Assembly: GCA_032622095.1 (NCBI GenBank)
Contig: CP136066.1
Coordinates: 65,852,278-65,916,277 of the forward strand
Origin: Siphonodentalium dalli
Lineage: Eukaryota; Mollusca; Scaphopoda; Gadilida; Siphonodentaliidae
Direction: 5' to 3'
Length of the DNA stretch: 64,000 nucleotides
The notes under the pieces were generated by a model. It saw only the letters and a list, made by a program, of their open reading frames with translations, was not told the origin of the DNA and ran no database searches. A program made the translations under genes and the position numbers. Shown one piece after another: positions 22,701 to 63,019 of this stretch. The first letter of the stretch is position 1. Every line of letters begins with the position of its first letter.

Positions 22701-25700
22701 TTACCAGGGAGTGACCACGTGGCAATGTAACCAGATTGTAAAATAATCAGTGGTCCATGGGGAACATACATCTAAAGTTTCAGAAATGTGACACCACTTG
22801 AACATAAACAACACCATACATCTAAATACTGGCCACAATATAAAAAATACCACTGGCAGCCCAGGGTCAGGGTGTCGATCGTTGTGGGGAGCCAGGGTTC
22901 AAATGGTTAATGGTTAGTTTAAGATATTATCATTCTTGAAATCAACACGTCTACATTTATCACAAGCTAAACAAGACATTTCGTCATATATGTATACTTT
23001 ACTGTGAAATTGCGTTTTCCTGCTCTCCGTCAACGGATTCTCACAGTGTTTGGTTTTCTAAAAAGCGAGGATTCGAACTGTCAGAACTGTACTCCATGCG
23101 TTATTTAAAGTTGAATAAATATTGGGAAGGACAGACACTCCTAGTTGATAATGAATTCAAGTATATAAATATAGATAATAAACGGCGGACTCAACGTGGT
23201 CATGTGTTTTGACCGCAATAAAAATTCAACTTCGGGGTTCATGCAGTTTGCTGAATTTGTCTCGGGGTCAAAATCCCATGGCCACATTGAAACCGCCGTT
23301 CATTTCTTATATAAACACAAATATATGATAATATACCATACATTTTCTATATATCTGAGAAGCATCACATGGCGCTTTCGTTACACGAAATACACTGCGA
23401 GTACTACGACAGACGGCAATGTGTTACATGGATTATACTATTGTAATAATAGCTAGAAATCGTTCGTTGAGTATTTGTTTATTTTGTCCAGATATTTCAT
23501 ATTTAGTAGAGGAGTGTAAAATGATTTGGAAATATCGAAGTTAACATGATAATGGTACATTTCCATGCACAAATAAACGTTATACAAAACACTACGATTA
23601 GTTGTCAATGTAGAATGAGCAGGTGAGGGAGACAGTTATCAAGGAAAGTTGTATGCAGATGGATATGGAGAGTATGGCGAGTCTTGTCCGGATACTGGAT
23701 GCAGTAGAGAGTGTGTATGCGAGTAGGACAGTTGTCGAGAAAAGTTATATGTGGTATCATATCATCGAGAGTGTGGAGAAATATAGACTTGTCCTGAAAC
23801 GGCAGTAGAGATTGAGCATGCATGGGATATGTAATATGTATTATTCCAAGAAAACTGAAGGAAAATATATGGCTGAAATGAAGAAATCAACATATAGAAT
23901 AAAGTTTGTGGAGACTATATATAGTGCGCACCACTGCCCTCTGGCATAACTGCACACACCCCTGATACACTAAGTGCAGAGGAGAAGCAGGTTGATGACG
24001 TGGACGAGAAGTGTTGTAAAACTGAAGTAGAGAATGAAGAGGTGGATAATACAGATGTTGAATGCGAAGGGAAGAGACATGTGAAACTGCAGTAAAGAGT
24101 AAACAAGTGGGTAAAACGGGTATATTTGTGTGTATATGAGAGCAATCGATTTGGTGTGTCTGCGAAGGTGATTACGGCGAATGTGTCATATCTATGTATT
24201 AATAACTATGCCAATATTGAATACCAACGTAACCTAACTATGCCTTGGATACAGGGACGTGGCGACAGGGGGGGGGTAAACAAATTTCAACATTTTGTAG
24301 TTTCATGCCTGACACAGCATTAGTTGGAAATTGTTCACCACATATATGTTTAAATTGTTCTCATTGTTTGATTTTCCAACCAGTTATTAGTGGGGAATGT
24401 TTGTTTAATTGATCAAAATTTCAATTTTCCTATCTTAGGAGGGGGGGTCAGGTTGAGATAATCCAACAGTTAGAACGCTTAAGGTACCGATTGGGGATCA
24501 TCCAGCCACGCAGAATATTTCGGGTGATATGATATGTTCATATAATGCATAAGGCGTATGGATTAGAATAATTCACATTTCGTTGCACGACCAAAACAAT
24601 GTGCAGATAATTCGCGGTACAGTCATAACGGAATTATGTCAATATGGAATGAATCGCTGAGTCAGGTTGGATTTAACCTCAAATTATTTCTCGTGCTGAA
24701 GAAACGCTAACCGTAACGTAATTTAATTGAGATGTTCTATATGTTACATGCATGATGCGTTGGCAAACCTGTATATTGTGCATTCGTTGTCTTTCGCAAA
24801 GCATTTGATACTGTCAATAGAAGTCTTCTTTTTCATAAACTGGCATCTGTGGCTAGCTGCCGAGCTGACCAGCCGTGTTTTAATCGAGCTCCCGTTAATA
24901 CCATGCGGTAATAATTAAAGCCAGTGGTGCTGGTATGCCGAATGAATTCCGTTTCTGGTTAATTTCTTACAGTGGATTTCTTATGTTAATTTCTTATAGT
25001 GGATTTCTATAGCTATCATTATGAATATAGATATGGATGAATGTTCGGATTTTTACGACACGTTTGACGTTGTAGGTGAATCTGACATAAGCCTTGTTAC
25101 ACCAATCTCCACAGGTGTTAAGACAATGACACGCAACTACACAGTAAATCAAGAAAATCTCATAAAAAAGAGAAATATTCTTTACGGAAGATTTGGAAAG
25201 GGCTGTGGTGAAGGACGGTGGTAAATGTATAACATTTGATGTGGATACCACCAGATTTAACAGCTAATACAACGGACTTTGTGTTAGATATAGGGACGAC
25301 AGAATAGAAAGGGAACAGAACAATTCAAAATGGTTTGTTGCAAGAGACAAGGCTGACTTTGTTGTTGACGAACGAATAGAAGTATCCAGGGGGAAATCGG
25401 GAAGGTGACTTTACACAATTATAAAACCAACAGCAGATTTATGGTGCAAGGGTCGAAGAAGAACGTTCGATGGTGGGTTGATAAAGAGCTGCCCGTTGTT
25501 TTCGAAGTATTTTGTTCGGTTGGTAGGAGTGATCAAAATTCTAAGGAATCTGATTGGGATGATATGCCCAGTTCAACAGACCATCCGATTGCCTGTAAAA
25601 GTGTTATCCCCAGAACACCTGGAATGCAGCTGCGGATTGTGAGCAAACATGTTACCAAATCAGCCCGCAAGTCGATTCCGTTGTATAATGACAAAGTCTC

Positions 25701-28700
25701 TAATTTAAACCTAAGGATGATGGTGGCGGAACTTCAAAATATTGTAGAAGAAGTTAAATCGAATCATATGGACAACAATTCAGTCATTTTATCTCGTTTC
25801 ATTACTTTGGAAGAGGAAAATGCACAAGTGAAATATATTCAAAAAACACATGAACGAGATTTTGTGAATTTAAAAAAGGAAACCAAGAAACATGACAGGA
25901 CAATTCATCAGATAAGAGAGGAAAACAATAATCTTCGGAAGGCTATGAAAGCAGATAAGCTGGAGGCCAACGAGAAGAGTATGTTGACGCCACAGAAACT
26001 AAATCCGAAAGCTCCAAAGTGGTCACCCAAATTAACAGGTGATGAACAGAGTAACCCTAAACCAATCGTTTCAGAGGAACACATAGTGGTACCGTCTATC
26101 ACGACGTATAGCAAATTCTAAACACAAAGAGATGAGTCATTCTCAGTTCCAACACAGTCATATGGACGAGGCACCCGTTACCCAATGCTGAGCCTCGTCG
26201 GACAGTTCACTTGGTTATAGGTGACTCAGTATTGCGATATGTTGATCTCCGGAGGCTTGCCAACAGAGGAGAATATATGAAGAAAGTGTCGATCGGTGGA
26301 CTTAGACTTGATGGATTGCTCAGATGGTTAAATGATGAGCGAAATTTAATTCGCCATAACGTTGCGAAAGTTACTATTCATGTTGGAATCAACTCGTGTC
26401 GTAATGGATTATATACGGAAACCCAACAACTACAGGGCGTCCTGAATAAAATTCGCCATTTATATCCCGAGGCGAAAATCATAATCTCTTCTGTGTTGCC
26501 GACTCGAAGCAGAGCGGGGGCCAATACAATCATATGGAGCGCAAACCAGGCCTACAAAGCCGTATGTGTTGAACTTGGTTGTGAGTTCATTGACAACACT
26601 GCAAGCTTTGTTGAATCTGGAACAACACGAGGAATGGATAATTTATTTCATGATAATTGGCACCCTAGCAATGAGGGAGTAAAACTGCTAGGTGCTAACA
26701 TTCGGTTTGGAACAGTATGTGATCCAAGTCAGCCAAGCCCCCAGGCAGGATCATCTAACTTTGATGGGATGCGCGTGACTGACGATGTTTTGGCATTGAA
26801 AAGTGAGCTATCTGACATCAAGGCTAATCTTGACCATTAATAGTGAGTGTTTTATTGCATGTGAATTACTCTCTCCGTTTTGGATAGACGCGTTATTTAA
26901 GTCTGACCACGTTTTGGCCATTAACTCCTTGATTTACATTACAATTGAATGCCAATTAACTGCTAAAGTTTACAATGTGAGGGGCTTACAGCAAAATATT
27001 TACCATATGCTCTTTATTCAGTTTGCATGTGAATAGCTATATTACGCCCTCGTGAAAACGTGGAATATCAAACGGAAAGTGTGTTTGTCTTTAATTTGAG
27101 TGTGACAAACTGATTTAATTAATACGTAATTTAATTTGAGTGTGACAAACTGATTTAATTAATACGTAACATACATCCAATCGAATGATATTAATTCCCA
27201 TGCAGTAAATAGCATTTATTGAACCATGTGCACTCCTGTTTATATTTCTTTGTGTACACGTTAGAAAGAGAGAGCACTTTACCCGCATGAAAGTGGTACA
27301 CCACGTATACATGCATGCATATATATTTACTTACTAAGAGGAATTTCATCTCGGCTACCAGCTCACATGACCTTTAAATTGCTTATCTATATGAATTCAC
27401 CGGGACGTCCCGAGAAAGGCATTTCAAAAACGTTACGGTGCACTAGTTGGAACGTGCAGGGTCTTCGTCATAAATTGAACGATCATGAATTTAAAAGTTT
27501 ACTGACTGCTTATGATTTCATTACATTGGTGGAGACGTGGCATCACTCAGAAAGTGATATTGATATCCCGGGATACGAGTGCATACACATGCACCGTACA
27601 GGGGGAGGAGGCAGCAAGGAGAAAGCATTTTATTACCGTTCTGAATTTAAGATATTTTTCAAAACATCATTCGTCATCAAGGACATTGCTATCTGCGCTG
27701 AATTTCACAGAGAGCTAATGCATTCACAAACATCTGTTGTGTTTATGTCTGTCTATATACCACCTTCTAATTCAACTTTTTGGAATGGCCAAAACCGAGA
27801 CCAGGATGTCTTTACAACTGCAGAGACGGCGTTGTCGAAGTATAAGGATAACACGACCATTATTCTTGGGGGCGATCTCAATGCTCGAACGGGCACGCTT
27901 CCGAATCATATTACTGATGATGATACAAGGCACGTGCCATTGTCTGTAAAGTATACTCTCGACACTACTAGTTTACGTAATAGCATGGACGTAAAAGTAA
28001 ACTCATTTGGTCGACAATTACTTCATTTATGCCATAGAGCTGGCATTCGAACAGCAAATGGAAGGTGCCCAGGTGATCGTCTCGGGCGTCCGTAAACTAT
28101 TTATGTGTTAAACTTCCAACTGAATATTCTGATCACTGCCAACAGGTCACACATTTTAAAGTTAATGACAGCTCGCTCCCCAAATCCAGTACGAAATACA
28201 AATACGACAATAAAACACTCCGATTCATATGGAATGAAATGAGCAATCGACTATTTGACCGGACAAGCTTTCAACGATAAATTAGGGAATTATAGAATGC
28301 AATTATATTCTAATGATCAACCAGGTGTATCCCGAGCAGCAATCGATTTCACGGAGATATTAACTAAACTAGTGTTAATATGTACGATTGCAAGCGGAAG
28401 CATGACAACCGAAAATCACAACCGCGTAAGAGGAAACGGTTTGATAATAGATGCAAGGAATTAAAGCAGAGTCTAGATGGAACAATCCGTGAAATGAAGA
28501 TTAATCCATTCGATGCCACTTTAAGACTAAAATATCATACTATGAAATGAGCGTATAAGCAAGAAATAAAAAAGAAGAGATTTTTTTTGTATACAGACGT
28601 TCATGCCAGTTTAGAACAAATGGAAAGTGATGATCCCAAGAAATATTTGAATGTTATAGCCCAACTACGACAAAAACCCAGTTCTGATAATAGGCTCGAC

Positions 28701-31700
28701 CCTGATAAGTCAGTGGATTTGTTCAAAAAACTCATTTGTCCGTCCAATTCAGAAAACCGAATAGACATTAAGTCCACTTCTGATGGATTTTCAGAGATAC
28801 CAATAAACAATGAGCATACACCTGCGGAAGAGGTTATAACTGCTGCACGTACTCTAAAAATGGCAAAGCTGAAGGCCCAGATCAAATCTGCAATGAACTG
28901 ATTAAGCTTACGCTAATTACAATGCCATTATTGCTTGATGATATTCTTAACATGTTTAATATGATTTTACAGTCTGGTCACTATCCGACTGAATGGAGAG
29001 GGTCTGTATTACATTTATTGTACAAGAAAGATGATAATGCTGATCCCAATAACTATCGTGCAATAGCATTAAGCTCATCTCTTGGAAAGCTGTTCAATAA
29101 AATAATTAATCGCCGTCTGACTGCTTTTCTGGAGGCAAACTGCAGCATAAGCGACAACCGATTTGGATTTAGTAAAGGTAAAAGTACAATAGACAGCGCG
29201 TTTGTTCTTCATTCGGTGATACAAAAGTACAAAAACGTTGGCAAACCTGTATATTTTGCATTCGTTGACTTTCGCAAAGCATTTGATACTTTCAATATAA
29301 CTCTTCTTTTTCATAAACTGGCACCAATAGGAATAACTGGACGCTTACATACAATTTTGAAATCATTGTATGCTTCAAGTTATTATTCTGTGAGAACTTG
29401 TAAAGGATTGGGGCCTCCGTGTTTGTCAACAATTGGTGTACGCCAAGGGTATAACTGTCACCTACGTTATTTAAAATATTTATAGACGATGTTGGGAAAC
29501 GTTTCAATGATACATGCTGACCTGTGCAAATTGGCAATAGCCAGGTAAATCATTTGTTATTTGCCGACGATCTTGTGTTATTATCTGATAGTCCGGCTGG
29601 GTTACAGCTTTGTTTAGATAAATTAAACGCATATATACGCGGACTAATTATCTCAAAATCAATGAGGACAAAACTAAATGTGTAATATTTCGATCAAGAC
29701 ATCGTTCTATTAATCCAAAATTTTACATCGAGAATACTAAACTGGAAATCGTGAAAGAATACACGTATCTTGGAATAAATTTTACTAGTAATGGAACATT
29801 CATACAAGCTATATGCGATATGAGCGCTAAAGCCCGCAAAGCCTTCAAATCATTTTACACTGCCCATCTAAATATGAAATATCTGGACAGAATAAACAAT
29901 TGCTCAACGAACGATTTCTAGCTATTATACAATAGTTTAGCCCATTTAACACATTGCCGCATATCGTGTTGCTCGCAGTGTATTATTTGTTGTAACGAAT
30001 GCGCCGTTTGATGCTTCTCAGATATATAAAAGATGTATATATGTGTTATATACACAATGTGTTTGTATCGATTCATGTATCGCGAGGAGGCTAGACCTTG
30101 GTCTCCGAGTCGCTATGTGGTCACGAAAACTAGCCGAGTCGCGATACATGAATCATTACAAACATTGTGTATATAACATGCTTACCTACCATTGGGGGAC
30201 AGAATCCATCACACAAAGTACATTTTAGGAGATTCGTAAATGCCAAAATTGTTGGATTTGTTTCCGACGATTAGCTTTCTTGAGTACCGTTAACTTATCC
30301 TAACCTGCAAAGGTATCTGCGTCACGCGATTAGGTCGCTTTGCTAAATTCTCACAACGTGCCAGTTCACGCGAATATGCCCAACGGAAATTGAACACAAT
30401 GGTCAAAATCTCTTACACCTGCGTTTTTATATAATCTATAAAGGATACTCAACAAATACATATTAGTTACTTTGTGATATGTTATACTATAATACCCACG
30501 ATGGCCTCATGTCTCTCATGCCTCATGTGTCTCAGATACAGGCTAAATCGGGGAGATATGATAGCAGTGTATAAGCTAACACACCGTTTCTACAACATAG
30601 ACAGCTGTGTGTTTTTGAAGACACACTCCACAAAGGAACACAAGCATAAGATGAAAAAGAACATAATTGTCAAAGATGTGCGAAAATATTTCTTTTCCCA
30701 GAGAGTGATTACAAACTGGAATAGTTTATCAGATTACAATTTTTCCTCTGAATCGGTTAAACAGTTCAAGGAGCTATTCGATGACAAATGTTATAACGAG
30801 CGGTATATGTACGATTAAACGTCATGGATAACTTTAAAACTGAATGAATTCATTAACGTTATTCTATATATGTATTTTATTATGTGAAAGTGGTAAACGT
30901 CATGGCGACTTGCTCCCCAAACATTGATGATGATGATGATACGCCTTTATCACATTTCAACCATGCGTCCAACGTAGCCGAAATGTGGACCACTGCCTAC
31001 ATTGTGTCGTAGAAGATGACTCACCAACTTTCACTCCGATTGGTCAACGAATGCAAAAGATTGAACATGGTCCACAAACCCCGTATTTGAACTCAAGTAA
31101 ACACTGTTTATTATGACGTTTGTCGAAATGACGTCATATGAAATCGCACACAAACCCACACTTTCTTTGCTATAAGTAAGGCGTCGCACGGGCTCGGCGA
31201 CGCGATAAAATTCGTATCCGGAGCAAGATACATTCACATACCAAATTTCAAGTCGATAGCTCCACCCGTTTCCGAGATCTCGTCTGCGCATGCGCGAAGC
31301 TGGCGTCGCACTGGCTCGGCGACCCGATACAATTCGTATCCGGGGCAAGATACATTCACATACCAAATTTCAAGTCGATAGCTCCACCCGTTTCCGAGAT
31401 CTCGTCTGCGCATGCGCGAAGCTGGCGTCGCACGGGCTCGGCGACCCGATAACATTCGTATTCGGGGAAAGATACATTCACATACCAAATTTCAAGTCGA
31501 TAGCTCCACCCTTTTCCGAGATCTCGTCTGCGCATGCGCTGCACGGGCGTCGCACGGGCTCGCCAATACAACAACGACCACCGCCTGGTCAAACTACATA
31601 CACGTACCAAGTTTCGTCCCGATCGGTCAAGAATCGTAGATTTGTATTAATGACAGACAGACAGACAAACAGACAGACAGAGGTCTTCAAAATATATATG

Positions 31701-34700: not shown

Positions 34701-37700
34701 ATCTTTGGGTGGAATACAAACTATCAGTAGCGACTTCCCGAAATTGAGCCAGCTATCACATGTTTGAATTGCTTTAACAGCAGCCATACCGTCGATCAAC
34801 CAATGTGCGCTCTTCACGGGTCAGAACAAGCATTTGTTTCCCCAATAAGATGGTTTCTGAGTGCAGCTTTGGATCCTTGTCTCAAGTCTCGCTCTGGAGT
34901 TGCTAAAGCGAGCGGAACTGATGTCAATGGATATGAATGCGCTTCAGATGCATGGGGTTGTTGCCTTCCCGACCAATAAACCGAAAGCTTGGTGATCTTA
35001 CTTCAGAACGTTGACAACTTTCGGATCCTTTTTCTTTTTCTCCCTGCCAGTTTTGATTTTCGGCTTAGGAATTCTGTCGAAAAGGCTTACCCGATCGGAC
35101 TCCGTGACCTTAATCCTCTTGTCAATGAATTCGGTAAATAATTTCTCACCGAGGTCTTATGAAGACAACAATCCATCAACCGTACCCTTCTCAATCTCAA
35201 CTCCTGTCGACAGATGTCTCGCTGGGCCATCTTTAAATGGGTCAAAGTACTTAGCCAGTTGGTTAACAAGCTTCTCGATCATGATTCCGTGTATTTTACA
35301 TGCCCCTTTTGTTGTTTCTGTGTGTGCATGAGAAGTGGTGAGAACACACAATTTGTCTTTGTGTTGATCGTACCTTAGCCATAACCATGGGCGTATCCAG
35401 CATTTGTAAAAGACGGGTTCGAATATTAACTATGGGGCACAGGTGACAGGACCCAGGTGAAAAGCTCCGACCGCGGCGCGTGTGAAGACGCATGAGACGG
35501 CGCCCCTTTCCCGCAGGTGGGGGTCCGAGGGGCCTCCCCCGGAAAAAACAATCTTCAAAAATTGAACCCATCGAGCGCGAATCTGTAGCATATTTGACGA
35601 TTATTTGTGTAACATCTGCACGTATATTAGAGAGGTAATAATTTATTGGATTTGATCTACCGATTATGTGAGAATATATGACATGGCAGTGTTTGTCTTC
35701 ACACATGACCAAGTTTTATGTACTAATGTTTTCTCCATGTATGGGACTGTGACCGCGTGTAATATCGACTCGGATAATAACGAACGATGACAAAACCCAA
35801 CCATCCCCATATATAATCTGCGTATTATATCCCTTTGCGATATTATGAATTTATGTTATGAAGGCCTACACTCAAAATTGTTATGTTATTCGCTGAAGTG
35901 GGCTATATAATATATGGAATTGAACGACAATCAATCACTCATTGCATATAGCCCACTATCGTTAAATATATATGCATGTAGAACTTGATATGTAAAGCCT
36001 GGAATTTTCCTATACTATATACATGAACAAACTGCACACTAAAAAAAAAGTAGATAGATTTGGGTAGTTAAAATTTTTTCACTACTCTCCTAGTTTTTTT
36101 AGCTACTTTTCCTAGTCACTTTAGCTACCTGGAGCTGGTATTTTAAATACTGATTAGGTAGCAAAGATTCTTACATAGGTAGTTAAATGGACGAACATGA
36201 CATTTGGAACTTATTCCCTATTCTTTATTTTCAAAAATGTGGCTTTCGGCCGATTTCATGGCATGGGTGGGAGGCCGGCCCCAAACACCACCAAGAAACA
36301 CCCCGACCCCCACCATCACCCCCGGGGGTGCCACCCCGAGGGGGTGAAAATGGGGATATGGACAATTTTCGAGAACGGTAAGGATTTCGACCGAGTTGAC
36401 GGCATGGGTGGGTGGCCGGCCCCAAATACCACCTAGAAACACCCCGACCCCCACCCATCACCCCCGGGGTGCCACCCCGAGGGGGTGAAAATTGGGATAT
36501 GGACAATTTTCGAGAACGGTAAGGATTTCGATCGAGTTGACGGCATGGGTGGGTGGCCGGCCCCAAATACCACCTAGAAACACCCCGACCCCCACCCATC
36601 ACCCCGGAGGGTGCCACCCCGAGGGGGTGAAAATTGGGATATGGACAATTTTCGAGAACGGTAAGGATTTCGACCGATTTGACGGCATGGGTGGGTGGCC
36701 GGCCCCAAATATCACCAAGAAACACCCCGACCCCCACCCATCACCCCCGGGGTGCCCCCCCCCCCGAGGGGGTGAAAATGGGGATATGGACAATTTTCGA
36801 GACGGTAAGGATTTCGACCGAGTTGACGGCATGGGTGGGTGGCCGACCCCAATACCACCTAGACACACCCCGACCCCACCCATCACCCCCGGGGTGCCAC
36901 CCCGAGGGGGTGAAAATTGGGATATGGACAATTTTCGAGAACGGTAAGGATTTCGACCGATTTGACGGCATGGGTGGGTGGCCGGCCCCAAATACCACAT
37001 AGAAACACCCCGACCCCACCATCACCCCGGGGGGGTGCCATCCCGAGGGGTGAAAATGGGGTATGGACCATTCTCGAGAACGGCAAGGATTTCGACCTAT
37101 TTGACGGCATGAGTGGGTGGCCGACCCCAAATACCACATAGAAACACCCCCTGGGGTGGTGGGTGGGGGTCGGGGTGATTCTTGGTGGTATTTGGGGTCG
37201 GGAATAAGTTCCAAATGTCATGTTCGTGTTAAACGGTTCGTATTCCTGATTGGTTAAACTGCGTGCCACGTGATCGTTGTTTAAACTCTGTTTGAAAATA
37301 TTCCGAACTTTAACGGCGGACTTTTCTCGATAACTGTCCAGTCACTCCAGTGGAAATAGCAAGGTTCCACGTCTTTCTGCCTCTGGCAGTACGCTACGAA
37401 ACGACCAGATGGTACCAGATGGTACGAAACGTCCGGGTACGAAAAGTCCTGTATCCGCGCCCGGACCGTCACCACGCGGTCGGAACTTCTCTGTGTTGGA
37501 TTTAGATGATTAAAATATGACATTGCATTCGTTCCCATGGTAAGTTTCTTTTGTACTATCGTATGAACACATATGCATGAGGTTTTTATAGGAAATATGA
37601 CATTTAACGTCCAATTATGAAGTGATCATGGGTGATACATGTACCTCGAATATTGGAAAGGTAGATTTCCTAAAAATAATAGTATTAGGCCTACTATTAG

Positions 37701-40700
37701 TAAAGTGTCAGTGTCTTTTTTATTAGTAATGATTAATGTGAGAAGAAAAATTTTGTGTGTCCAACCACAGTCACTGTACATTAACAGTTCTGGGTAAACA
37801 ACGGATCGATATATAATGGCCCGATTCAACGATTGGGCTAAAAGTTAAAACAGTCAATTGGTGAACGTTCAGACGACCACGATTCAATCGTAAGCAGCTG
37901 TCGTAAGTGGAAAAATTTCCATTATCGATAAAGGAAGTAACCAGTAGGCAGTAGTTGAATTGCGCATGCTCATGACAATGTTGCAAGCCTAAAAATATTA
38001 TCAAGCACTGTTTTATTTTAGATGCGAAATCGTGGCATATCCTTGGCTACTTCCACTAATTGTGGCATAATCGCTGTCGTACATGTATGTATGTAAAAAT
38101 CATAGCTGGATATGATTGTAGGGAAGTCAATCACATGCTTTACGAACAACTTACGATATCATGTACGACAACATCACAATCGTTGGATCCATTGGAACTT
38201 ACTATCAATGCTTACGCCTTGTAAGTTCCAACATTAGCCCTAAATGCTATTAGACACTACGCCGCCCTAATGGTCAGCTCAAACTGCCCATTAGGGCGGC
38301 TGACGGCCTGCCATACCCTGTGTAGAACTATCTATTTCACAACATTTTTCATGTAAACAATGAATGCTAGCCTTATTACCTCACCATATATTTTCAGTCG
38401 GTACTCCCCGCCACAAGTTGACGCCAAAAGTTCCCTGTGTCGGTGTATCTAAATCCTTTAATCGGACATTTCTAAACTGTCTAATGTTGGTGACCTCGAT
38501 AAGTCGTCCATCTTCACGTTCTTGTTGACATTTTACACAAGGCCACGTGCTCGGAAGAACTACTGGGTAATTTACTACGTCCGGTTTGGCCTATAGTCCA
38601 TTTCACGAATAACCGTTTTAAACTGATTTCAAGATTTTATTGTTAGCAAACCATTACAACGGTGTGAGTGTGTAATATAGTGAAACATCCTAGTTGAACC
38701 AAGCGAACAATATAACTTCTGTCTTGTGTATATAGTATTACAGCATAGTGTTAAATGTTAGTAATTATGTAGGCCTTGAAGATTAACCTGCATATCTATA
38801 GCTAGGAAGGCCTACATACAAAATCTCATTTTATGGTATATGTGGCTTTGTAGATGTTCGCCAATCGCCATGGCTGCATGTATGTGTCATAGACATGATA
38901 CATATTAGTATTCATCGTATTTTGTTTCTTTTTATTGGCTTGGTATGCAAACTGACATTAAATTGGACATTTTCGACAAATTTGTTGTTAGATCGGACAA
39001 TGGAATATTTAAGTCATCTGTATGGACGAAGGAACGATCACTAGATCTTATTGAACCATGCACGATGCCCAGCGACTGATAAGTTCACACCGACTGACAT
39101 GCCCGCAGCAGTTTTTATCTCAAATAAATTGTTATCAAAAGTTCAAAACACATATTTCTGGCCGAGAAATAAGCGGAGTAAGTGTGATCATCATTTATCC
39201 ACGCACTCAAGGCTTGACAAATGTGGACCTTGTTTCTATTCGACACAAGCATGGAACATTGATATAAATCTATAAGTTTCATTTTTGTCTAACAAACGGA
39301 CAACTTTAATAGCTTCAAATTTTCGCGTGACGGTAATGACGGGGTACAGGGATGTCGATTTTTGATATTTTTTATATATATCAGAAAAACAAAAATTACA
39401 TATATCATTGAAAGATGCATCTCCTGAATATACGGGATATGAAGATCACTCCGTTTTATCCGGAAATGTATCTGCTAACCGATAAAACAATCTCACTTCT
39501 TATAATTTCACTTTTAACAAATCGTGTGGTGGGTGAGAGACATCTCATTTGAGTGATTATGGGTATAAAGGGACGTCAAAAAATCTCAATAAAACTATAT
39601 ATAGATGTTCATCGAGCGTTGGCTCATAACGCAAAACATAGACTGCATGGTCAGTTTGGTTTTCTGACATTTACGACAATTTTGTCGCATAAAATAAATA
39701 AAAATACGATAAGAAACTGGAAATGTTTATGCACATTCCGGACGGGATATATGTCCCTGGCACATATTTGAAATTTCACGGAAAATATGAAAGATAACAA
39801 AGTTATAGCCTAATTAGTTTTATAGACCCGTTCTAAATATCCCATAGAAAATGCATGCCGACGATAAGCATGCAGGGGTGCGTAGAAATACCAAGCAGAA
39901 CCAAGTTGGATAAAACTAAGGCGGAAAATGACACTTAAATCATGTTGTGTGCTGTATAATGGAGAAATAAACCATAATAATGCAACATGACGTGATTTTA
40001 TTTGAGTTTTGTTGACTATATAGCGAGCGTAAATCAAAAAAAAAAACAGTGCGGCGATCGCGAAAACTTTTCAGCTTGGTCATTTACAGATCGCTGTGTT
40101 TGGATACTTTCCGTCCCAGAACGCAACATAAGCTCCATCCTGAGTTCAGTCTCCTACACAGGACTTACCCTGCTAGCACCTACATGGAATGTGAAGCAAT
40201 GTCGTATTTATTTATTTTAGAAGCAAATTTGATACCTCCTATATATACATATTTATTTTAGATTTTTGTAGGTTACAGCTAATTCTGCATTATTCTGAGA
40301 AACGTAAATGTCCATATTCGTTTGAAAATGGTCTAGGTCAAGCCAGAATGAATTATTATTATTTATTATTATTACAAAACACTTCTATAAAAAAAATATT
40401 TTATTTAAAAAAATACACGTGCCTGCAGCCGCAGCGTTACGACATCTCTTCGCGCGGAGACTAAACTATGTCTGCAGCTTGAACGCAACAGTCAATAGTT
40501 ATTCGTGAAATGGACTATAGGCCAAACCGGACGTAGTAAATTACCCAGTAGTTCTTCCGAGCACGTGGCCTTGTGTAAAATGTCAACAAGAACGTGAAGG
40601 TGGACGACTTATCGAGGTCACCAACATTAGACAGTTTAAAAATGTCCGATTAAAGGATTTAGATACACCGACACAGGGAACTTTTGGCGTCAACTTGTGG

Positions 40701-43700
40701 CGGGGAGTACCGACTGAAAATATATGGTGAGATAGTAAGGCCACCATTCATTGTTTAGTTGAAAAATGTTGTGAAATAGATACCTCAACGCAGGGTATGG
40801 GGGGCCGTGTGGCACTAGAAATGATGAAATACATTTCTAGTGCCATCGGGTCTAAATGCTATAGGCGAGTAGATTTTCAATAAAAGTAACAATTATGACC
40901 AAGGCACATGTATTTATCAACTAAATACTAATACAAGTATGAAACCACCCACTCACCAATGTGTCATTTATCCTTAAAATGACAAATAACAGAACGTAAA
41001 CACTGGCAGACATGTCTACCATAGTATGTGACCGCAACATGTCATTACACACGTTCATGAATCCTGTGGAATATCAGAACAATCCACAATTATGTCGAGT
41101 TTGAGGGGATGGCAAAGTTTGGTCAAGATGGCCACCGCGGATTGCACCCTACCTCCAGATGATCAATAATTACTCACCGGTCATATAATGGATCAACTTC
41201 ATATTTTTCACACATAATAATCAATAATAAACAAAGATCTTGTCATTAGTAGAGAAATTTTAGCTGTTAGAATTTACTCGCGGTAGAGTGACAAAAAATC
41301 ATGTCCCCAAACGGCGTTTCTCCAGTTCCAATGGTTAACAAACTGAACAGTCAAAATGGTCCTATAAGAATCTGGCTAGAGACAAGGAGACATCATTTTG
41401 AGGAAAAACAAGAACTTTCCCAAATACCCTGCCTGTGAAAATAGTACTGTCATCCTGAATAATGGCAAAATGTCCTCCATTTGCATTGTTTACATTCTTA
41501 GGAACTATTTTTCTTGGTATGGGAGACCATAATATCCTAACATTATTTTGCGATAGCCGATACACATGCCATGGGGGCGGGGCGGCCATGATTACAAACA
41601 AACCCATCCGTCAATACTAGAATACGATTACGAATGGAGATCGATCAGTATAGACAATCGCGCATGGGATTAAGCTTTTGATTATGCCCATCAATATATA
41701 TGGGTTATAAGCTATACCGGTATGATTGTACCTGATAACCGACAATTTCTCGATTAATTTACATTCAAATGTTATTAAACGTATTTTTTTCTCCACAATG
41801 TTTTTCTCCCAGTGCACCAAAATAGAATTGACCGGAAGTGAACTCGCACAAGGAGTCCGTCGTAAAATATGACATATTTCGTCGGAATACGGTACTTTCC
41901 TATTCATAAATATGTTTTTATATACATGTAGGCTATTTGATTTTAGAATAATACAATATTCTGAAACATGTGTTTACAATAGAAATATGGCGACTGGCTC
42001 CCAAGAAAAACTGACACGTTTTAGCGGACGTTTTTCAAACGATACAGTGAACATTAATCTAAAGCATAGCTCCTTGGCTCTTAACGGTATGTCACTTATC
42101 ATAATGGGCTGCCTAATGATACTGTTGAAGTTATAGTTTTTCACATTTGAATGCCAAAACAATGGCATAATATTGCAGATATACTCTGTTTCAAAGTCAT
42201 TTTTCTGGTACAAAAAGCTTTTTAGCTCCCATCTATTTGTGGCACCTCCTTTAACGATATATGCTCTATATATTATCTCTATGTTGTTATATCTATTACT
42301 CTCTGCTTTTATGTGAAAAAATTATGCAGGTCTTCATTGTATATAGAATATGAATGATTATTAAAGTGATGTGAAACACTTCGGTTGGGTGATCAAATAG
42401 AAATAGAGAATAATCTTGCTCAAAGTACCATAGTTATTTTTTACGAATATTAATCCAAATTGACAACGCACATCGTCATTCTGTTATTTTAATTCAATGC
42501 AATGACTCTCGATGCGAAATCATTTGTATGTTTTTATTGTCGATAGTTGCGTCCCGAATCGAGATGTAAATATTTACAGTTGATCGTAGTTCAGACGATA
42601 TTTTCTATGAAGTGGTTTCGTTGATTTCTTTGAAATTTAGTAGAAAGTTAGCAGAACGGTACCTTTCCCAGGTTGGCGTAATGCCTGAGTATACTAACTG
42701 GTCACTTCACGCACCCAAACAAGTCCATAATATGTCTTTAATGGAAGACAAAAACAATTGATTTTAGTACGATTGAGGTTGAATATATATATATTTTTTT
42801 CTCCCTTTCATAGGTACATGTATCATGTACTAAACACTACTCAAATTCTATATATGGGTTGATATCTCAAAAGTGCATTCTGGCTGGATAAAAAACTAAT
42901 TTTGAAACATGAATACGGAAGGAAGTTCAAAATACATGATTTGCAGGTACTGGAAACGTGCAGCAGTGCTAAAATGACATAGAAACATATGCTACTGTTA
43001 GTCTAAAAATAGAAATTTCCTACTAAATGGGCACTTGTAATTTCTGGTTCGAAAATCAAGCAATGAGAACAAGATACTCCCCCCCCCAATCACCCTGTTG
43101 CCACGTCCCTGATACTGGGGCAAATTGGGTGCAATTGCCAGGTGGACAAATTATTGTACTTTGCAAGTACATTTCAAGAATGCCTGGACAAACATACATG
43201 TATATTATGATATCTCTGAATGATTAATCGTTAATCATTAATTTTTCACATTCAGAAAAGTTTTCAATATGCCCATTAGCGTGATCGATGAGAAATGCAC
43301 TGCACTCTTAGTGTTACATGGTTGCGAGGTACATGTATATGGTACAAGTCTGCGAGTTACATGTATGCTAAAAAAAATTCTATATCAGATTTATGGAGGC
43401 ACGTACTCAGCACTAGGATGATTTTTCATTGCTTCACATGTGCTTGCTTTGACAGTGAGCTCGAACAAATATTTTGAATTTTGGAAAATTCCCAGGCCCT
43501 CCTTATAAGCTAATATAACATGTGAGATCTAAAACCCTAAATGTAAACCATGGATGAAATATGTCCACCTACATGTACTAGTACCTCCTCATAATCCTTG
43601 AAATTCTACAAATTTGTTGAAAAATACTAGCGATATAACAAGATACACCAATGCATTCATATGTTTTTGCGCATAAAACCATGATATATTTGAAACTTTC

Positions 43701-46700
43701 AATTTGAATCTATGAATGCATTGGTGTATCTTGTTATATCGCTAGTATTTTTCAACAAATAAAATAGGTCTATCAGAATAGTTCACTATCTAAGGTGTTG
43801 TGTAATTACGGTGTCACATTGCAAGTTATGTGACAAGCTCTGAGCAGCACAGTAAAGACATCAAATCATTTTCTTGACCACATATCTACTACAAACATAT
43901 TTGTCATTGATCCCTAATGGAGTTTCGCATATGTAAGAGAATGCATGATTGGCACAGGGTTTTCGCAAAATTTCAAGAAGCTCCAGTCATAGAAGGGTTA
44001 TAAATAATTAAGACAGTTGTAGACATTAAACGGACATGGCTCATTCGAACCCTGAAATTTATGTTTACGTAATTCGAGAAAAGGGGTCTCAAAACATATC
44101 TGCAAACCAGCATCCCTATCATTTTTGGTTCGCGATAATGTGTTTCCATTGGATCTTATTTGTCCATGCGAGAATAATAGCCTCTGTTGACATGGATGTA
44201 ACAATAGACCAGTTTTCCAGTTTGTTACACAATGTCAACATGAATTTTAGTCATTTACATTGATTCTTGGAAAACATTGATTTTTCTCAAATATACTCTA
44301 ATCACAATTTAGTAGTCAATAATTCTCAGTTGGCTGTCGATGAACTGCAGTTAGTTAAATTCCGTAGTTGTTTTTAAATATACTCAAGCCAATCAAACAG
44401 TACCCATATCATCAAGATACAACATTTCTTCAAAATATGCTTTAGTTATCAGAATCGATGTATTGCAATAAAATAATGCTAATCACTGTCAACTATGGTA
44501 TCAAATTACTCAAAACTTGTTGTTTACCAACATTCTTTCAACAAAATATGGTAGTATCATCACTAAAGTATATCAAAATTTGATCGTATTACCACTTACA
44601 TCTCGAGAAATAACAAACTTCAAAAAATTATATCTGATCACTCTGAGCTTTGATGGGTGGGTTCCTCGACTCAAAGCAAAATTTGTTTGCCCCCAAAACA
44701 AAAGAAATAGTAATATAGGAGTGTCTGATCATCGGATTGAGTACCTCCTACCCAGGTGGTGAAAAATAAAAGATATGAAAAATTGATATCTGATAACTCT
44801 GAGCTTTGATTGGTGGGGTCCTCGACTCATATCTAATATTTTGTTAACCCCCGAGCCAGAGAAACACTAATTTAGGACCGAAATGAAAATTGGGAAAATA
44901 TGTTTCTACTTCTAATAAAAAGGAACGATATTGAAAACTGTCACTCAAATTTTTTAAATTTTATTTCTCCATCAGTTTAATTAAAACCACCTGCCTCTGA
45001 GTCACAAGATGAAATGTGGGAAAATGGCAAACATGGTAAGACCTCCAGGTCAGGGATAAATGCTGAAAAGACAAAATAGTCTTGTCGATAAAAGTTTTGA
45101 TCTAGAAAATATTTGGACTACATGTAAGTTGGTTTTTATTCCATTTTGAAGAGGAATAATAATCATATCCTCTATAACATAATCAAAATCTGTTGGAGCA
45201 AAATGTTCTATTCAAAATGGCATCCATGATGACAATTGGTATTGAAAAATGCCTATCACTTTCTGTGATAGGTGGCTTTAGGTGAATCAACTATTGCCAA
45301 GTTAGTAATAAAATGAAATATACACAAACAATGCTTTAATAGTCGTAAACGATATAATTATGTAGAATGTCTGTACCAACATGGCTATAACACACCTGTT
45401 AGGCTGTTACCCCATTTGATATTGGAATAGTTAGAAAATAGACATGAAAAATAACACCAAAAACAGTGTCTTCACCATCGGTTATAGTAGTAGAATCGGG
45501 GTAGTATAGGATTAAATTTGTTTTAAATTATTTTTCCTCAATATGTGTCTACAGTATATTGTTTACACGCCGTTCACTCAACACAACATTCAAATTATAC
45601 AGCATTGCGGAACACAAAGCTAATATCTTATACTTCATATCATATCTATTTTTTTTGTGTGTTGAAAAAAATTCTTTAAAACAGTTAATCCAAGTAGATA
45701 ATTAAAACAGTTCCAATGCTACGTGCATGTGCACACTGCGCACTCTCTCCATCTTTCTATTGTTTACAGTTGATTTCAACATATAAACGCGCAGTGGACG
45801 GATCTACGTAAATTGTGAAAAACTATGTGGATATATACTTAGGCCAATGAAAAAAGATACATGTTTCCGCACGTCGACCGACCCTAAAAATAACCTCAGA
45901 CCAGGGGGTCTGGAAAAATATTGCACATACATGTATAGGGCCAAACAAAAAAAATTCAGACCCCGAGAAAAACATCACCCCATTTGTGCAAAAAAATTCC
46001 TCAAAATTTTGGGGGCCAACCCCCCTTTTTCATGTTTTTTTTTCAAAATTTCAGAGTTTTTTTTAGCCGTTCATCAATACGGTAACTGTGTTAACTGCCT
46101 TTCAATCCCATTCCACTATCCTTTTTTGGTGCAAACTCTTGCTGTGTACCATTAAGACTCGAGCAATAACATGCTTAATTGGTAAACACAGATCAGAAAA
46201 ACAAACTGTATTTCCAGGTGTTTCCTGTATCTAACAACAATGATAAAGCATGTAGGTACATTATAATACCCTGCTTGACAAAACAAGAGTCCACCTAACC
46301 GCGGTGCAGTTAGCGTTGCCACCGTGGCTGAAATGCAACTACTAGTACACCGCGGCTCCACCGCCTAACTACAGTTGGGCCGCGGTGTACTTGCCGTTCG
46401 GCCATGGTGTAATTGCCGCGCCGCGGTGTACACTGTACGTTCATTAAACCGAAAAAAGACGATGCAAACCAGAAATCTAACCACGGTGTACATGCCGTTC
46501 GGCTGCGGTGTAGTTGCCTTTCGGCCGCAGTGTACTTGCTGTTGGGCCACGGTGTACTTGCCGTTCGGCCGCGGTGCTCAACTGCAGTTACAAACTCTGA
46601 CACCGCGGCCGAACGGCAAATACACCGCGGTGCCAATGGACACTTGTTTTGTCCAGCGGGGTATGTCACAAATAGCCCTAGACCCCATTATACAGTAATG

Positions 46701-49700
46701 CCCTAAGTAATCAACCTCTTAACCAAAGCAGAATTATGGGTAACGTTCAGGATTTAGTCGGAATATGGCTTGTTGCCTTTCATCGCAAAGCTCTCGCCGT
46801 AAGCTTTCCGATGAATGGCAACAAGCCATATTTCCTACTAAATCCTGAAAAGTTACCCATAATTCTGCTGGTTATTTAAAGATGTCGATTACTTTAATAG
46901 GGCATTACTGTAGCCTTAATATATCGAGTGTGTTGTGTGTGACAGAACACTGGCCAGTGTAGATAGTGGTAAACAAGTCAGGGGTTCCACAATTATTTGT
47001 ACATGACCAAAAAACTCTTCAGTCTTATTCACCGAGGTGGGGTGGTGGAGGGGAATTGTTTTGTGTTTTTTTTCAGTCTTATTCACCAAAGGTGGGGTGG
47101 TGGAGGGGAATTGTTTTTGGTTAGGTATACACAGAGATATACATGTATGTTTATTATATCCCCCGATATTAGTTGGCAGGTACCGGTATATTGTTGACCG
47201 TCCGACCATACAAACATTTTGCATGGTAACTCGGGAGTCGGTTGTCATATGTTGATGCTCTATGGCACGGTGACAGACCAGAAATGGGGAATGAATATGC
47301 ATAATATCACGGGTTGTGACCATCGATGCCTACCAGAGTTATGGGCCCTGTTCGGCTTTATGAAATTCAGTCCGTTCAAAGTTTTTGCAATATAAGTGTC
47401 TGTTGTCGAATTTCCGATTTGGTTTGGTATGGTGATAGACCAGAATGATAGGGAAGGACATGTGTATGCATATATTACTGCATATCACAGGTTTTGCCTG
47501 TCAATGCATACCAGAGTTTCCGGTCTTGTTCCATCCGTAAACACATTATGCATTATTATAACTCAGGGGCTCCCGGTGGTACAGTCGGTAGAGTGCCAGG
47601 TGCTTACTCTGTCCAGTGCCGACGAAGCTGGTTCGAACCCCGTCATAGGTAGAGTGACTGGAATCATGTATCTGGGCAAGTTTGTCAGTTGCTTTCCGGG
47701 GGGTCGGTGGTTTATACACGCAGTGAGACGATTTGCAATTTGAAAGGAATATACATGTATGTCAGCTGTGTATGTCACTAATAAATTGTTGGAAAATCTA
47801 TGACCACAATTTCAACCTATTTTTGGTATAAAGTTTCCAACTAAATGTTGAGTGATGTTTGACTGCAGTTGGTGGGATTAAGACCCATGCATTACCAGCC
47901 CACGTCCCACTCTGATGCCCCGTCCCAAGAGGGTGGTCTTGCATTCATCACTGATGATGAGAAATTGTCAATATTAGATCTCATTGGAAAACAGGGTTTG
48001 ATCTCGTCAGGGAGGGGATACAACCCCTTGTCCATGAGGGTTAGCTGCACCCATTGCGGAGATCTGCAATAGTCAGCCCGGTATTATAATCTGGAGATAT
48101 CCTGGTGGCACCCATGTTGCAAAAGATATAAAAACATTTAAAGACAACAGAGCAGAAATCAGGGGGCCAATAACAAGGCATGCATGTGGTCTCATAACCA
48201 CAAAACTACATGAAAGTCACCCATATCAACCCAAATTGGATGCAGTATATATATATGATTATATATGATTTCATTATCTCTATATCATATATATTCGGTC
48301 TCTTTCATAACTTAGGGAAAATACATAAGTACCGGTATAGAAAGAGTTGAAGATATGGGCGGCCTTGGAAGTGGGTTTGCTGTTTAAATATTCACCTCGG
48401 TCAAAAACCACCATAAACAGAAATAATAGTAAAATATAGACAGACCTTGTTCTTATCCCAATCAGAAATATGGCAAAAACAGTATGCTATTGTAAATGTT
48501 TTCCCCTTGTTATGTAAACAGAAGCAAAAAAAGTTACGTTTTCTGACTTTTGTTTAGATCCGGATATGGTAAACATAAAGAGCGTTATTTGTTACTCTTT
48601 TCCCGATATGGAAATAATAAAGAGCGTTTATATAATTTTTGTGTGATTAACCAATAAATTACGTTGTGTTGTGTAAACAGAAGCACAACTGCTGTAACAC
48701 AAGCAGGTTCTTGTTTTTGTACACCATCGTACGTCTTGACGACAATGTTATATTTACGCTCTGATTATGTTTGGCATATGAGCGGAACTGTATGTATTTT
48801 GGTGTTCCTTCCGTTGATGGCGATTTGAACAAATAGAAATATTCCTGCAACGAACGCCGCTCTTGCCTTTAATGTTCTCCAGATAATACTGAGTATCAGA
48901 TGACTTTCATGTCAAATCCCATTATCATCAGCAAATTCTTGCACAGACAAGGTCTACTATCAATGGAGCGAATTTATGCAACAAACATGATAGATCTGTT
49001 GAATCTTCCCATCTAGGGTAAAGGGGGGGTCTATCATTTGATGATATTGAGTTGGGAAAATCCTGTGCCAATGCATTCTCTTATATAAGAGTCTCCCCCG
49101 CCAATACAAGATAATACATTGGCCTAACAATATTTACCATGACCTTGTAAGCCAGTGCATTCTCTTATATATCAATTAATAATATGTGAGGCTCCATATG
49201 CCAGTGATCTTTACTGATTAGACCGTGTTGTGGCTGAGGTAGCTGTCACCCGGAGATGGAGAAATTCCTATTTTGATTTTCTATTTCTGTGTACTATTCT
49301 ACATCAGAATTTCTGAGGTGTATGGGGCAAAGCCCAGAATTTTGTTTTTAAATGGTCAAACTCGTGTCAAAATTCCTTGAAAATGGCTATATTCTATAAA
49401 ATCAATCAATGATAGTTAAAATTGTGATAAATGAAACGAAACATCCACTTAACTGACCCCAATTAGTCTACTTATTATGAACAAAAAGAAATATCACAAA
49501 AGGATAGACGTATTTTGAAAAAAAGTCGAAAAAATTTTGGCATATATATTTGACGAAATTTCAATGGTCATAACTTAAAAATCGTTCCTTAAATCACAAC
49601 CAAATGAGCTTTAAAAACAGCTCACATCATTTGTGCTACTATCTAATGAGAAATAATTACATGTACCATTTATTGTATATGTTTCGTTATATTCATGATA

Positions 49701-58700: not shown

Positions 58701-61700
58701 TTTGTTTTGTCCGATTGATTTATGATATTTATTGCCGTATAAAACAGTCTATGACATATTTGTCTACTTGGGGAATGTAAACACGTTTCTTCTTTGGATT
58801 TAACTTACTATATCTTCTATGCAAGGGCTCTAATTTAATAATTTTATTGTGATCGAAGCTAGCGACCTTTTTGACAGCGCTGAATGACTTTGAATATTTG
58901 ACATTAGGCCTAGTGTTGTCGTGAGTTGTTAAAAGTTTCTGCAGTCATGAACTATATCTATAACTCTGTGGTATGTTACCATTTCATTTTGCCACACAGT
59001 GAGCTGTTGTATAAGATAATTCCAGACACAATATTACACTTGACAGGCACATCACATTGTTTTTAGCGTACACTCAATTTTAGAAAAGTCGATCAGACGA
59101 ACCGCAATCACGTTGATAACGTTATTGGGTTACTCCCCTTTTCTAAAGTATGGTGCGCCATAGTAAAACATAAAATAATCGTCATCGATTCATATCTCGT
59201 ATTCCAGGTGATTTCCCAGGTGGCCCCGAGTCTTATTTTATTTAGTATAACCTCCAGTATGATAACCACTATAGAAAAGTTTGACAAAAAAAAAGTTCCA
59301 TAATTTTTGAGCTGCACCTGTCTATAAGCTAAGTTAGTCACCATGTGCACAAACAGTTGACTAACCTAAGTCAGTCATATCGATTTTTTTCTTCAGTGTA
59401 ATACCGTCCATCGGTCTGTTCACTTTTCGTTTCCGGTTGATAACTTAAGTAAGTCTCAACTGAATGGAATGACATTTGGTATGTGGGTTTACTAGCCCAA
59501 AATACAGGCCAAGTTCGAATTTGCACGGGTTCCACCCGCCAATTTGCACCAGAGTTATGGCTCTTTGTTGAAATTACCACGGGCGTATACTGCCACGCTC
59601 TAGCAATGCTCTTGTTCGTCGGCGTTTAGCACACACAAAAAGTTGTCCGGGGGAGTATATTTCGAACAGTTATCGTAGGCTTTGAAAGATATTTTGGTAT
59701 ACGAGTTCACAAGAGGCGTACTGTATCTGAAACGAGTTCGCAAACTGAGCCCGGCCGGTCATTTTAACAAGTGTTTGGGCCCCTTGATTGTCATTCTTAG
59801 CGTTTAGCACACACAAAGTTGTCCGGGAGTTATTTCGAACAATTATCAACGTATTTGACAGATTTTTGGTGAGATCATAAGAAACTAAGCCTGCAATTAG
59901 CAGAATGAGGTCCCCAGAGGGTGAATTTGGTGATGCTATCCCGCACAGCGGGCTAGCATCCCCAAAATTACCCTCTGGAGACCTCTTTCTGCTTAGGCTT
60001 CATCTTCCGGGAAGTATATATAGTATCAAAGTAAGCTCGAACTAAAACATTTATTAACCAATGACAACCAAATACTAACTGATTTCGAATATGTCTTAGC
60101 ATATTTTGAAAATACCCATGCCCAAAGTTGTCCACCTAGGCGGGCGATACCGCCGTAAGCGACTGCTTGTTTAAGTTGTACAATCGACGTGGTTGGAATT
60201 CGCTGCAATAGTAGATGTTTGTCACATTATTCATGATAATATAATACCTGATTACTCACTGATCAAGCCGTGTTCAGTCACTCAATTGACACAAATGTTG
60301 CATTTAATAAGAAACCAAACGTTCTATGTGCATGGTTAACTGTTCTTTTGGCAAGTTAGTATTTTATCAATGTTGGTGACGCGACCCTGTTATAATAACA
60401 CAAAGGATGCCACTTTACATCTTCAAACAACACGAGTAGATTCCTCGTATGATATAAGCGTCTAATATAAATTAAATAGTAAATTTCGTTACCAACACGG
60501 ATTTATCATTTCCGGTGTCCCTAGCTGCTTATCCCCAACGTCACCGAGGGCCGGGAACTTATGTATATATGTGGATTTGAAATATAATTCGTGCAACAAT
60601 TTAATATTAGCGTGTGTGCATTCTTTACAAGCATGTACTTCCGGTAAGACGTACCATATTCGCAGAAGGACATTCATCTGAACAAAGAAACAAAGAAACG
60701 GAGATCCGGACAGACCGAAAACATTACTTGCGTCCAGAATAGACTGGCGCAAGTAATTGCAGGATAACTCGCTATTTCCGAGTTAATTGTGATTTAAAGT
60801 TCAGCTTTCGATAACACGACACTTCTGCTCTGTTCATTCAGAAACGTTTAATGCATTAGTTATCTAATTTTGCGTGATTTTATCCTGATGTTATGGTTCC
60901 AGTACACAAAATAATGAAAAGAAATCATTTCTGAACAATCACAATATCGGAAATAGAATAACTTCCTATGTAAAAGTTCCTACACAGTGACTTTCTCTTA
61001 TGTGTGGAAACAAAACAAACGGAATGTAACCAAATGTGAAAAAGCGCATTTTTACCCAAACTTTTGTGAATAATTTTCAAATTATGGTTTTTCTTTACAA
61101 GTAATTGCCTTCATTTGTATTAGTCTATGACCGTAGCATATGTATATGTATGAAGTTATCAAAATGTTTATGCTAGAGAATCCAAACTGACGTCACATCG
61201 AGTGATTTAATAAAACAAGGAATATCCAAAATTGATAACGGCGGCCATCTTGGATTTCAAAATGGCGGGATATGACCACGAATGAGATCACCTAACCGAG
61301 AAAATATAAATCAACAAGCACTCTGCCATCAATACCCGAAGTCAAAGTGAGGATACATTTCGTGAATAAATACCTGCACCAGCAGCTTACAAAACAAATT
61401 TTGTTTGCGAGGGATCCAAATTTGGTGACGAACTTGAATTTCTAACTTGAAGTTCAAATAATGTGCATACCTGACACCTTCCATATCGTTGGCCCCACCG
61501 TAAGCGTTCAGTATTCTCGCGAGCTCGTAGTTGGTTTTTAGTGGAAATTCTTGGCCTGTGAGATTGATGAAATACTTCCAGTTTCTTCCTCTCTTCCACA
61601 GTTCTTTCATACAAATTATTTCTGGTAATATAACAGAGAACTGCCCCCACTTTACATCCACCGAGAGCGGCGACGGAAACACGTTATTGAAGCAGCTTGA

Positions 61701-62306: not shown

Positions 62307-63019
62307 GCTATACCGAATGTGTGTATGCAGATAACGTTCAGTCGATTTACTAATTATGCGAGAACTTCTAATGTTTGCATTATTTTTATATCTGTGCTGC
62401 GATGCGGTCGATGTCAGGTGTATCGATGTCTACGTGCTGTCGACGAGGGGAGATAGTCTAGGCAAATATGGACATAGGTGTCGCATCGAGAGGGAATTTA
62501 TGAGACCTACATTTTTGGTTAGCATGAACACTTAACTTTCGTAATCTGTATGTTGGCTTTGTCGGATAGGCGGACATTTTTTTTCTCGCACCGCGCGGTT
62601 TTATTAAGGCACCTGGTGATCAAATCGGTCGTTTTTTAAATAAAGCCGACATATTTGACAGAGTATATTCACACCTTTTGATAAGAGATATTCGTCCAAT
62701 GTTGACACCTGTACATGGGGCGATAAACAGATTAAGGTAATACATGTAAACATTGAACCTCGGAATGACAGTCATGACGTCATGTGACGTCAAATAATAT
62801 TTAGGGTGGGAAGAATATGAGGATTCACGCAAAGCGTTGTCTTTCGTTTCTAATAAAATCAGAAGTAAGATAGTTATGCCCAATTATTTTATACCATGGG
62901 AAACTGCTGCCAATTAGCTACGTTATAATATATCACTTATCGCTGTTGGTCGCATTATCAAAGGCAGAAAAATCAACCCTCCCCTAAAGCTGAGAGGCGT
63001 CAGACTGTGGTGTAAGGCA
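62307..63019. other. Upstream flank of the GCNT-like gene
   Basis: The promoter and any 5' UTR exon of the minus-strand gene should lie here or beyond, but no convincing core promoter motif was picked out. No other gene is seen. Confidence 0.4.

Follow-up and report, generated by a model that had tools for sequence, protein, structure and literature searches.

Canonical Helitrons lack inverted repeats, generate no target repeat and integrate between A and T. According to those parts of the published reports on which we draw here and below, Helitron1 elements begin with 5'-TC, end with CTRR-3' and have a short hairpin positioned 10-12 nt before the 3' terminus (PMC5148889). In the Helraiser transposon the hairpin is a termination signal whose deletion allowed bypass; exchange of the stem kept ca. 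90% of activity, and a change of the loop or exchange of the whole hairpin brought activity down to the level of hairpin deletion (PMC4778049). New 3' ends were found in 39 of the 395 bat copies examined in the Helraiser study (PMC4778049), and Lep1 Helitrons keep their body while the acquired 3' sequences differ among species (PMC4038834). Helitron2 elements possess hairpins at both ends, and some of their non-autonomous Chlamydomonas copies have target repeats 7-19 bp in length (PMC3627910). Here we describe an element of ca. 2.6 kb at positions 38250-40855 of a 64,000-nucleotide stretch of contig CP136066.1, which in its entirety is called the window. The layout of its ends, a tip common to both, a direct repeat at its borders and a third end of like form at the left border are directly observed. 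We tentatively interpret the element as a non-autonomous mobile unit with two outward-facing ends that may act in the manner of Helitron 3' ends; the unit would have inserted next to another end of this kind.

Unrelated hairpins outside long inverted arms

The element contains two inverted arms, located at 38303-38613 (plus strand) and 40498-40808 (minus strand). The first-pass annotation had described well-conserved arms of 311 bp, and the two indeed align over 311 nt without gaps and with 14 mismatches (95.5% complementarity). The mismatches are unevenly distributed: the outermost 80 bp contain 12 of the 14 (binomial p = 4e-6), a divergence of 15%, and the inner 231 bp the other two (0.9%). 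A gradient of this kind is expected if conversion homogenises the inner arms and fades toward the tips, as we infer here. No further copy of the arm is present within the window.

A hairpin is located directly beyond each arm. Hairpin B on the left (38261-38300, minus strand) is separated from its arm by 2 bp and consists of a 13-bp perfect stem, one T.C mismatch and 3 more base pairs closed by a loop of 6 nt; reading outward, 7 nt follow and then CTAA. Hairpin C on the right (40810-40845, plus strand) lies 1 bp from its arm and forms a perfect stem of 14 bp with a loop of 8 nt, followed by 6 nt and CTAA. DNA folding of the left and right tip segments yields z-scores of -6.5 and -10.3, and none of 200 shuffles is equally stable. 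B and C represent the only perfect stems of at least 11 bp in the window at loops of 3-16 nt, where 13 stems of at least 9 bp occur in all; in 60 simulated sequences 13-bp stems average 0.03 per sequence and 14-bp stems are absent. Wider loops add one further perfect stem of 11 bp, that of the neighbouring hairpin A (see below). Longer imperfect palindromes are present elsewhere in the window, for example at 46762-46832 and 59899-59993, so that it is the position of B and C, not the existence of strong hairpins as such, that is unique. Likeness between the two stems is at chance level, with fractions of 0.36 and 0.40 of controls scoring equally well. Folding, stem scan and stem comparison thus bear out the earlier description of perfect, unrelated stems of 13-14 bp placed one to two bases past the arms. 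Homology of the stems to each other or to their flanks was rejected after five comparisons, all at chance level except that of the left stem with the left flank (0.02-0.04), which fails after correction for five tests. Rfam at gathering thresholds returns no match in the window.

A common tip and a direct repeat outside the hairpins

When both ends are aligned in the outward direction, their sequences agree again past the hairpins and share the common tip GNGTCTAA, which makes the hairpins subterminal, each bounded by a conserved tip on its outer side and by a conserved arm on its inner side. The left outer tip is TTAGACAC at 38250-38257 on the plus strand (GTGTCTAA when read outward); its counterpart at the right end is TTAGACCC at 40848-40855 on the minus strand, with the plus-strand reading GGGTCTAA. 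Inverted termini of the form TTAGAC(A/C)C are present at both ends in addition to the arms. With 7 occurrences in the window, where 5.2 are expected, the motif TTAGACNC is common by itself, and its placement is what counts. The terminal palindromes of parvoviruses can differ between the two ends of the genome. Parvovirus-like capped ends were considered for this element and rejected, since a common tip and a common arm bracket each hairpin.

The outer tips overlap an 11-bp direct repeat, CTAAATGCTAT, which is exact at both borders and located on the plus strand at 38240-38250 and 40852-40862. When 40-bp segments of the window were paired at random, 13 of 19,703 pairs shared at least 11 bp. The repeat had been noted earlier as lying just outside both hairpins; its exactness holds, but it is found 10 bp past the hairpin on the left and 6 bp past it on the right. 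The best parse of the tips has 7 of 8 matches including a run of 6 (TTAGAC) and leaves a 6-bp target repeat, ATGCTA, which is probably the core of the direct repeat (38244-38249 and 40856-40861). In 20,000 random-spacer simulations 0.9% reach 7 of 8 tip matches and 0.2% also show a run of 6. A second parse combines the tip TAGAC with the 8-bp target repeat AATGCTAT, and from this one copy the target repeat can be read as 6, 8 or up to 11 bp.

An additional end of like form adjoining the left border

Directly adjoining the left end of the element, and outside it, we find a third end of the same form. Hairpin A (38192-38231, plus strand) has an 11-bp perfect stem with a loop of 18 nt and is followed by the 8-nt spacer CATTAGCC and by CTAA at 38240-38243 on the same strand, the four bases with which the left copy of the direct repeat begins. 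Because the CTAA of end A adjoins ATGCTA, the repeat appears to be 11 bp long although its core is probably ca. 6 bp. The outward spacers between hairpin and CTAA measure 8, 7 and 6 nt at ends A, B and C, respectively, and the distances from hairpin to the end of CTAA are 12, 11 and 10 nt.

A strict scan of both strands of the window for a perfect stem of at least 11 bp with a loop of 3-26 nt, followed after 5-12 nt by CTAA, detects A, B and C and no other end, all within 2.7 kb. The same rule applied to 300 simulated sequences gives a mean of 0.023 ends and at most one per sequence, a number that overstates the case as the rule is post hoc, B and C are tied by the common tip and A and C by the repeat. 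More independent support comes from end A being located right at the border. Allowing stems of at least 9 bp with one mismatch yields four distinct hairpins, namely A, B, C and one at 796-835, compared with 0-2 rows in each of 15 simulations.

A left partner for an element ending at A was sought and rejected: no convincing left end or arm is present, and the candidate pairs were judged too weak. Small inverted pairs involving this end within 37500-38300 include, for example, 13 nt at 92% (37823-37835 with 38177-38189) and 20 nt at 75% (37889-37908 with 38197-38216). BLASTN of 37801-38250 against the window gives chance-level rows only, and the only other upstream CTAA end facing left found with a looser scan (see below) lies at 4180-4223 with a score of 8.

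Coding capacity and search for relatives

The interior between the arms (38614-40497) is without coding signal as judged by stop-free length and Pfam. The longest stop-free stretch in 38251-40851 spans 89 codons versus a shuffle median of 95. Nine stretches, seven from the interior and two from the arms, were searched with Pfam: five give no rows and four give rows that are all below the curated cut-offs, the best being DUF6106 (E = 0.0017, 40195-40461). Each arm contains an open stretch of 69 codons that at first appeared protein-like; a coding arm was rejected on the Pfam and structure-database results, which comprise weak Pfam rows below cut-offs for the left arm (E = 0.11 and 0.18), no Pfam rows for the right arm and one chance row in the structure database (E = 0.37). 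With reading frames in the interior not beyond chance, we take the element to be non-autonomous.

Relatives were sought in viral, phage and prokaryote collections and in the 64-kb window, searches that say little about the host genome. Exact 20-25-mers of the arm have no relative in viral contigs or prokaryote genome contigs, and BLASTN of the whole element against phages returns none. In viral contigs 14 stretches fit the pattern of the arm peptide, of which tblastn confirms none.

Comparison with known systems and alternative explanations

On both sides the end consists of arm, hairpin, 6-7 nt and CTAA, and it is this order that we liken to Helitron 3' ends. At all three ends the distance from the hairpin to the end of CTAA is 10-12 nt, as described for Helitron1, and as at a Helitron1 3' terminus unlike stems occupy alike places. 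Unlike Helitron1, the element possesses such ends on both sides, facing outward. The first-pass annotation knew of no family built in this way. Part of the layout is known, since published Helitron 3' ends have a hairpin 10-12 nt ahead of CTRR (PMC5148889); what stays unusual is to find such an end at either side of an inverted element that has long arms and a direct repeat. The element shares hairpins at both ends with Helitron2 and Helentrons, and the target repeats of some Chlamydomonas copies are a further likeness. The arms differ: here they are 311 bp long, inside the hairpins and alike on both sides, whereas the inverted repeats described for Helitron2 and Helentrons, in the parts of the literature drawn on, are 8-15 bp long and asymmetric, with one at the 5' end and one upstream of the 3' hairpin. 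Replitrons, also of the HUH type, carry terminal direct repeats of 5-11 bp comparable to the 11-bp repeat at both borders here but are described, in the same partial sources, as being without terminal inverted repeats.

In the interpretation that we tentatively put forward, a Helitron-type enzyme (HUH Rep/helicase) supplied from elsewhere would unwind the strand outward, halt at the hairpin and cut after CTAA. The stem could then change its letters freely provided that some stem is formed close to the end; tip and arm would remain alike, the inner arms through conversion. The likeliest route to two outward 3' ends would be an inverted pair of related 3' ends that subsequently moved as one unit. 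This unit would have inserted directly beside the older end A and duplicated ca. 6 bp (ATGCTA). The earlier suggestion that the ends are defined by structure agrees with the succession of hairpin, spacer and CTAA at three ends; it does not fit in so far as the hairpins are subterminal, with a common tip outside and an arm inside. Should the fold of the ends be what is recognised, and not their sequence, similarity alone could not find the boundaries of such elements, and similarity-based annotation would cut them at the arms. The element would then also represent a natural counterpart, within one element, of the Helraiser stem-swap experiment, and would show a Helitron-like end together with long inverted arms and a target repeat, a combination thought not to occur.

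Several observations weigh against this interpretation. The 311-bp inverted arms and the 11-bp direct repeat are foreign to Helitron1, and neither outer border starts with TC, although an internal 5' end may exist. Insertion between A and T is likewise not observed, the base after CTAA being T at B only and A at ends A and C. Not only the stems but also the loops of A, B and C differ. Given the loop sensitivity reported for Helraiser in the parts of that study drawn on, this argues against one enzyme following a simple rule of fold alone. No Rep/helicase is seen in the 15 reading frames, covering part of the window, that were searched with Pfam. No second copy was found in the collections and window searched, so that the variability described is that of two ends and one neighbour. 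Finally, a loose rule admitting imperfect stems with a score of at least 8 gives 8 CTAA rows and 11 other CTRR rows in the window (8 and 10 in a recount), compared with simulated means (n = 40) of 2.1 CTAA (maximum 5) and 4.0 other CTRR (maximum 9). The 8 loose CTAA rows correspond to ends A, B and C, the two strands of a palindrome at 46.7 kb and three weak stems. With such ends this common, the loose Helitron-end rule alone proves little, and the strict rule together with the adjacency of end A carries the argument.

The strongest alternative, to which we give about as much credence, is a non-autonomous cut-and-paste element of the DDE type, with terminal inverted repeats of ca. 360 bp starting from TTAGAC and a 6-bp target repeat ATGCTA (or tips TAGAC and the 8-bp AATGCTAT). 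The hairpins would in that case be fast-changing subterminal stems, and end A would be the end of an older relative whose flanking target was reused. Such elements ordinarily show long arms, a common outer tip and a direct repeat; long inverted arms and a direct repeat in a non-coding element are also what long-armed cut-and-paste and fold-back elements have in common with the one described here, and the window contains another long-armed element with a 7-bp repeat, CATTATC, at 12346-15819. Cut-and-paste alone leaves unexplained why hairpins are found at all three ends, 10-12 nt from the end of CTAA. To our knowledge, unlike subterminal tip hairpins are not part of these long-armed families, whether Mutator-like or of the Galileo type. 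Among the titles and abstract openings consulted in the openly licensed literature we noticed no family with unlike tip hairpins, which is no claim of absence from print. The features are therefore split: arms, tip and repeat fit cut-and-paste, whereas hairpin, spacing, CTAA and end A fit Helitron 3' ends. Our preference for Helitron-like ends is a narrow and tentative one, with cut-and-paste all but level. We consider it rather unlikely that the element represents a new eukaryotic kind, neither a canonical Helitron nor a member of a known cut-and-paste family, in which either end would be recognised through a hairpin at a fixed distance from a CTAA tip, the sequence of the stem being able to turn over, and which would also possess long inverted arms, produce a short target duplication and insert preferentially beside ends of its own form.

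An improbable origin of hairpins B and C is independent fold-back copying during the repair of broken ends, with proposed snap-back sites CAG/CTG on the left and ATG/CAT on the right and no role for the resulting stems. That the two stems are unrelated agrees with this, as does their near-perfection: one mismatch in 31 pairs has a chance of 0.04 if the stems are as old as the outermost 80 bp of the arms at 15% divergence. Measured against the arm-wide divergence of 4.5% the same near-perfection is unremarkable (0.59). The stems may accordingly postdate the outer arms or be maintained by selection, a choice that one element cannot decide. Fold-back copying moreover requires the same accident twice at the same place, plus a third hairpin nearby with similar CTAA spacing.

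It is very unlikely that each hairpin is a tiny independent insertion beside its arm, as the first-pass annotation had considered in the form of nested insertions: different sequence at the same place would fit, but no bases are duplicated on the two sides of either hairpin (left CACTAC / TGACGG; right, strand-turned, CCCGA / CACGG), and the spacing to tip and arm is nearly equal on both sides. Equally slight is the chance of two separate Helitron copies of the same family in opposite orientation that form no single unit; both ends do look like 3' ends, but the seven bases after ends A and C are identical (ATGCTAT), with a chance of ca. 1 in 16,000 at equal base use, and one insertion with a target repeat explains this.

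Other features of the window

The window looks eukaryotic, as suggested by its few long frames (13 reading frames of at least 150 codons), LINE-like frames and a fragment of a Core-2/I-branching enzyme. The LINE-like frames at 25369-29485 encode, in separate frames, a GDSL-like lipase domain, an endonuclease (Exo_endo_phos) and a reverse transcriptase (RVT_1). The Core-2/I-branching enzyme domain is located in an open stretch on the minus strand at 61329-62429, which includes 60-bp tandem repeats at 62041-62176.

The second long-armed inverted element, at 12346-15819, possesses nested arms, inner tandem repeats of ca. 35 and 111 bp and tips GGGACATG. It is flanked by CATTATC at 12339-12345 and 15821-15827, and no perfect stem of at least 9 bp (loop 3-16 nt) is found near its tips. 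Two palindromes are also present. The one at 46691-46912 is a snap-back palindrome of ca. 220 bp with an inner stem of 31 nt (94%) and outer arms, in which CTAAATCCTGA faces outward on both sides, while the one at 59899-59993 is near-complete, with 46-nt arms at 87% separated by 3 nt. Tandem repeats include a minisatellite at 36244-37150 with units of 141/283 bp, which is open in several frames on both strands so that its long frames are probably spurious, and an array of 6.4 copies of a 383-bp unit at 1303-3752.

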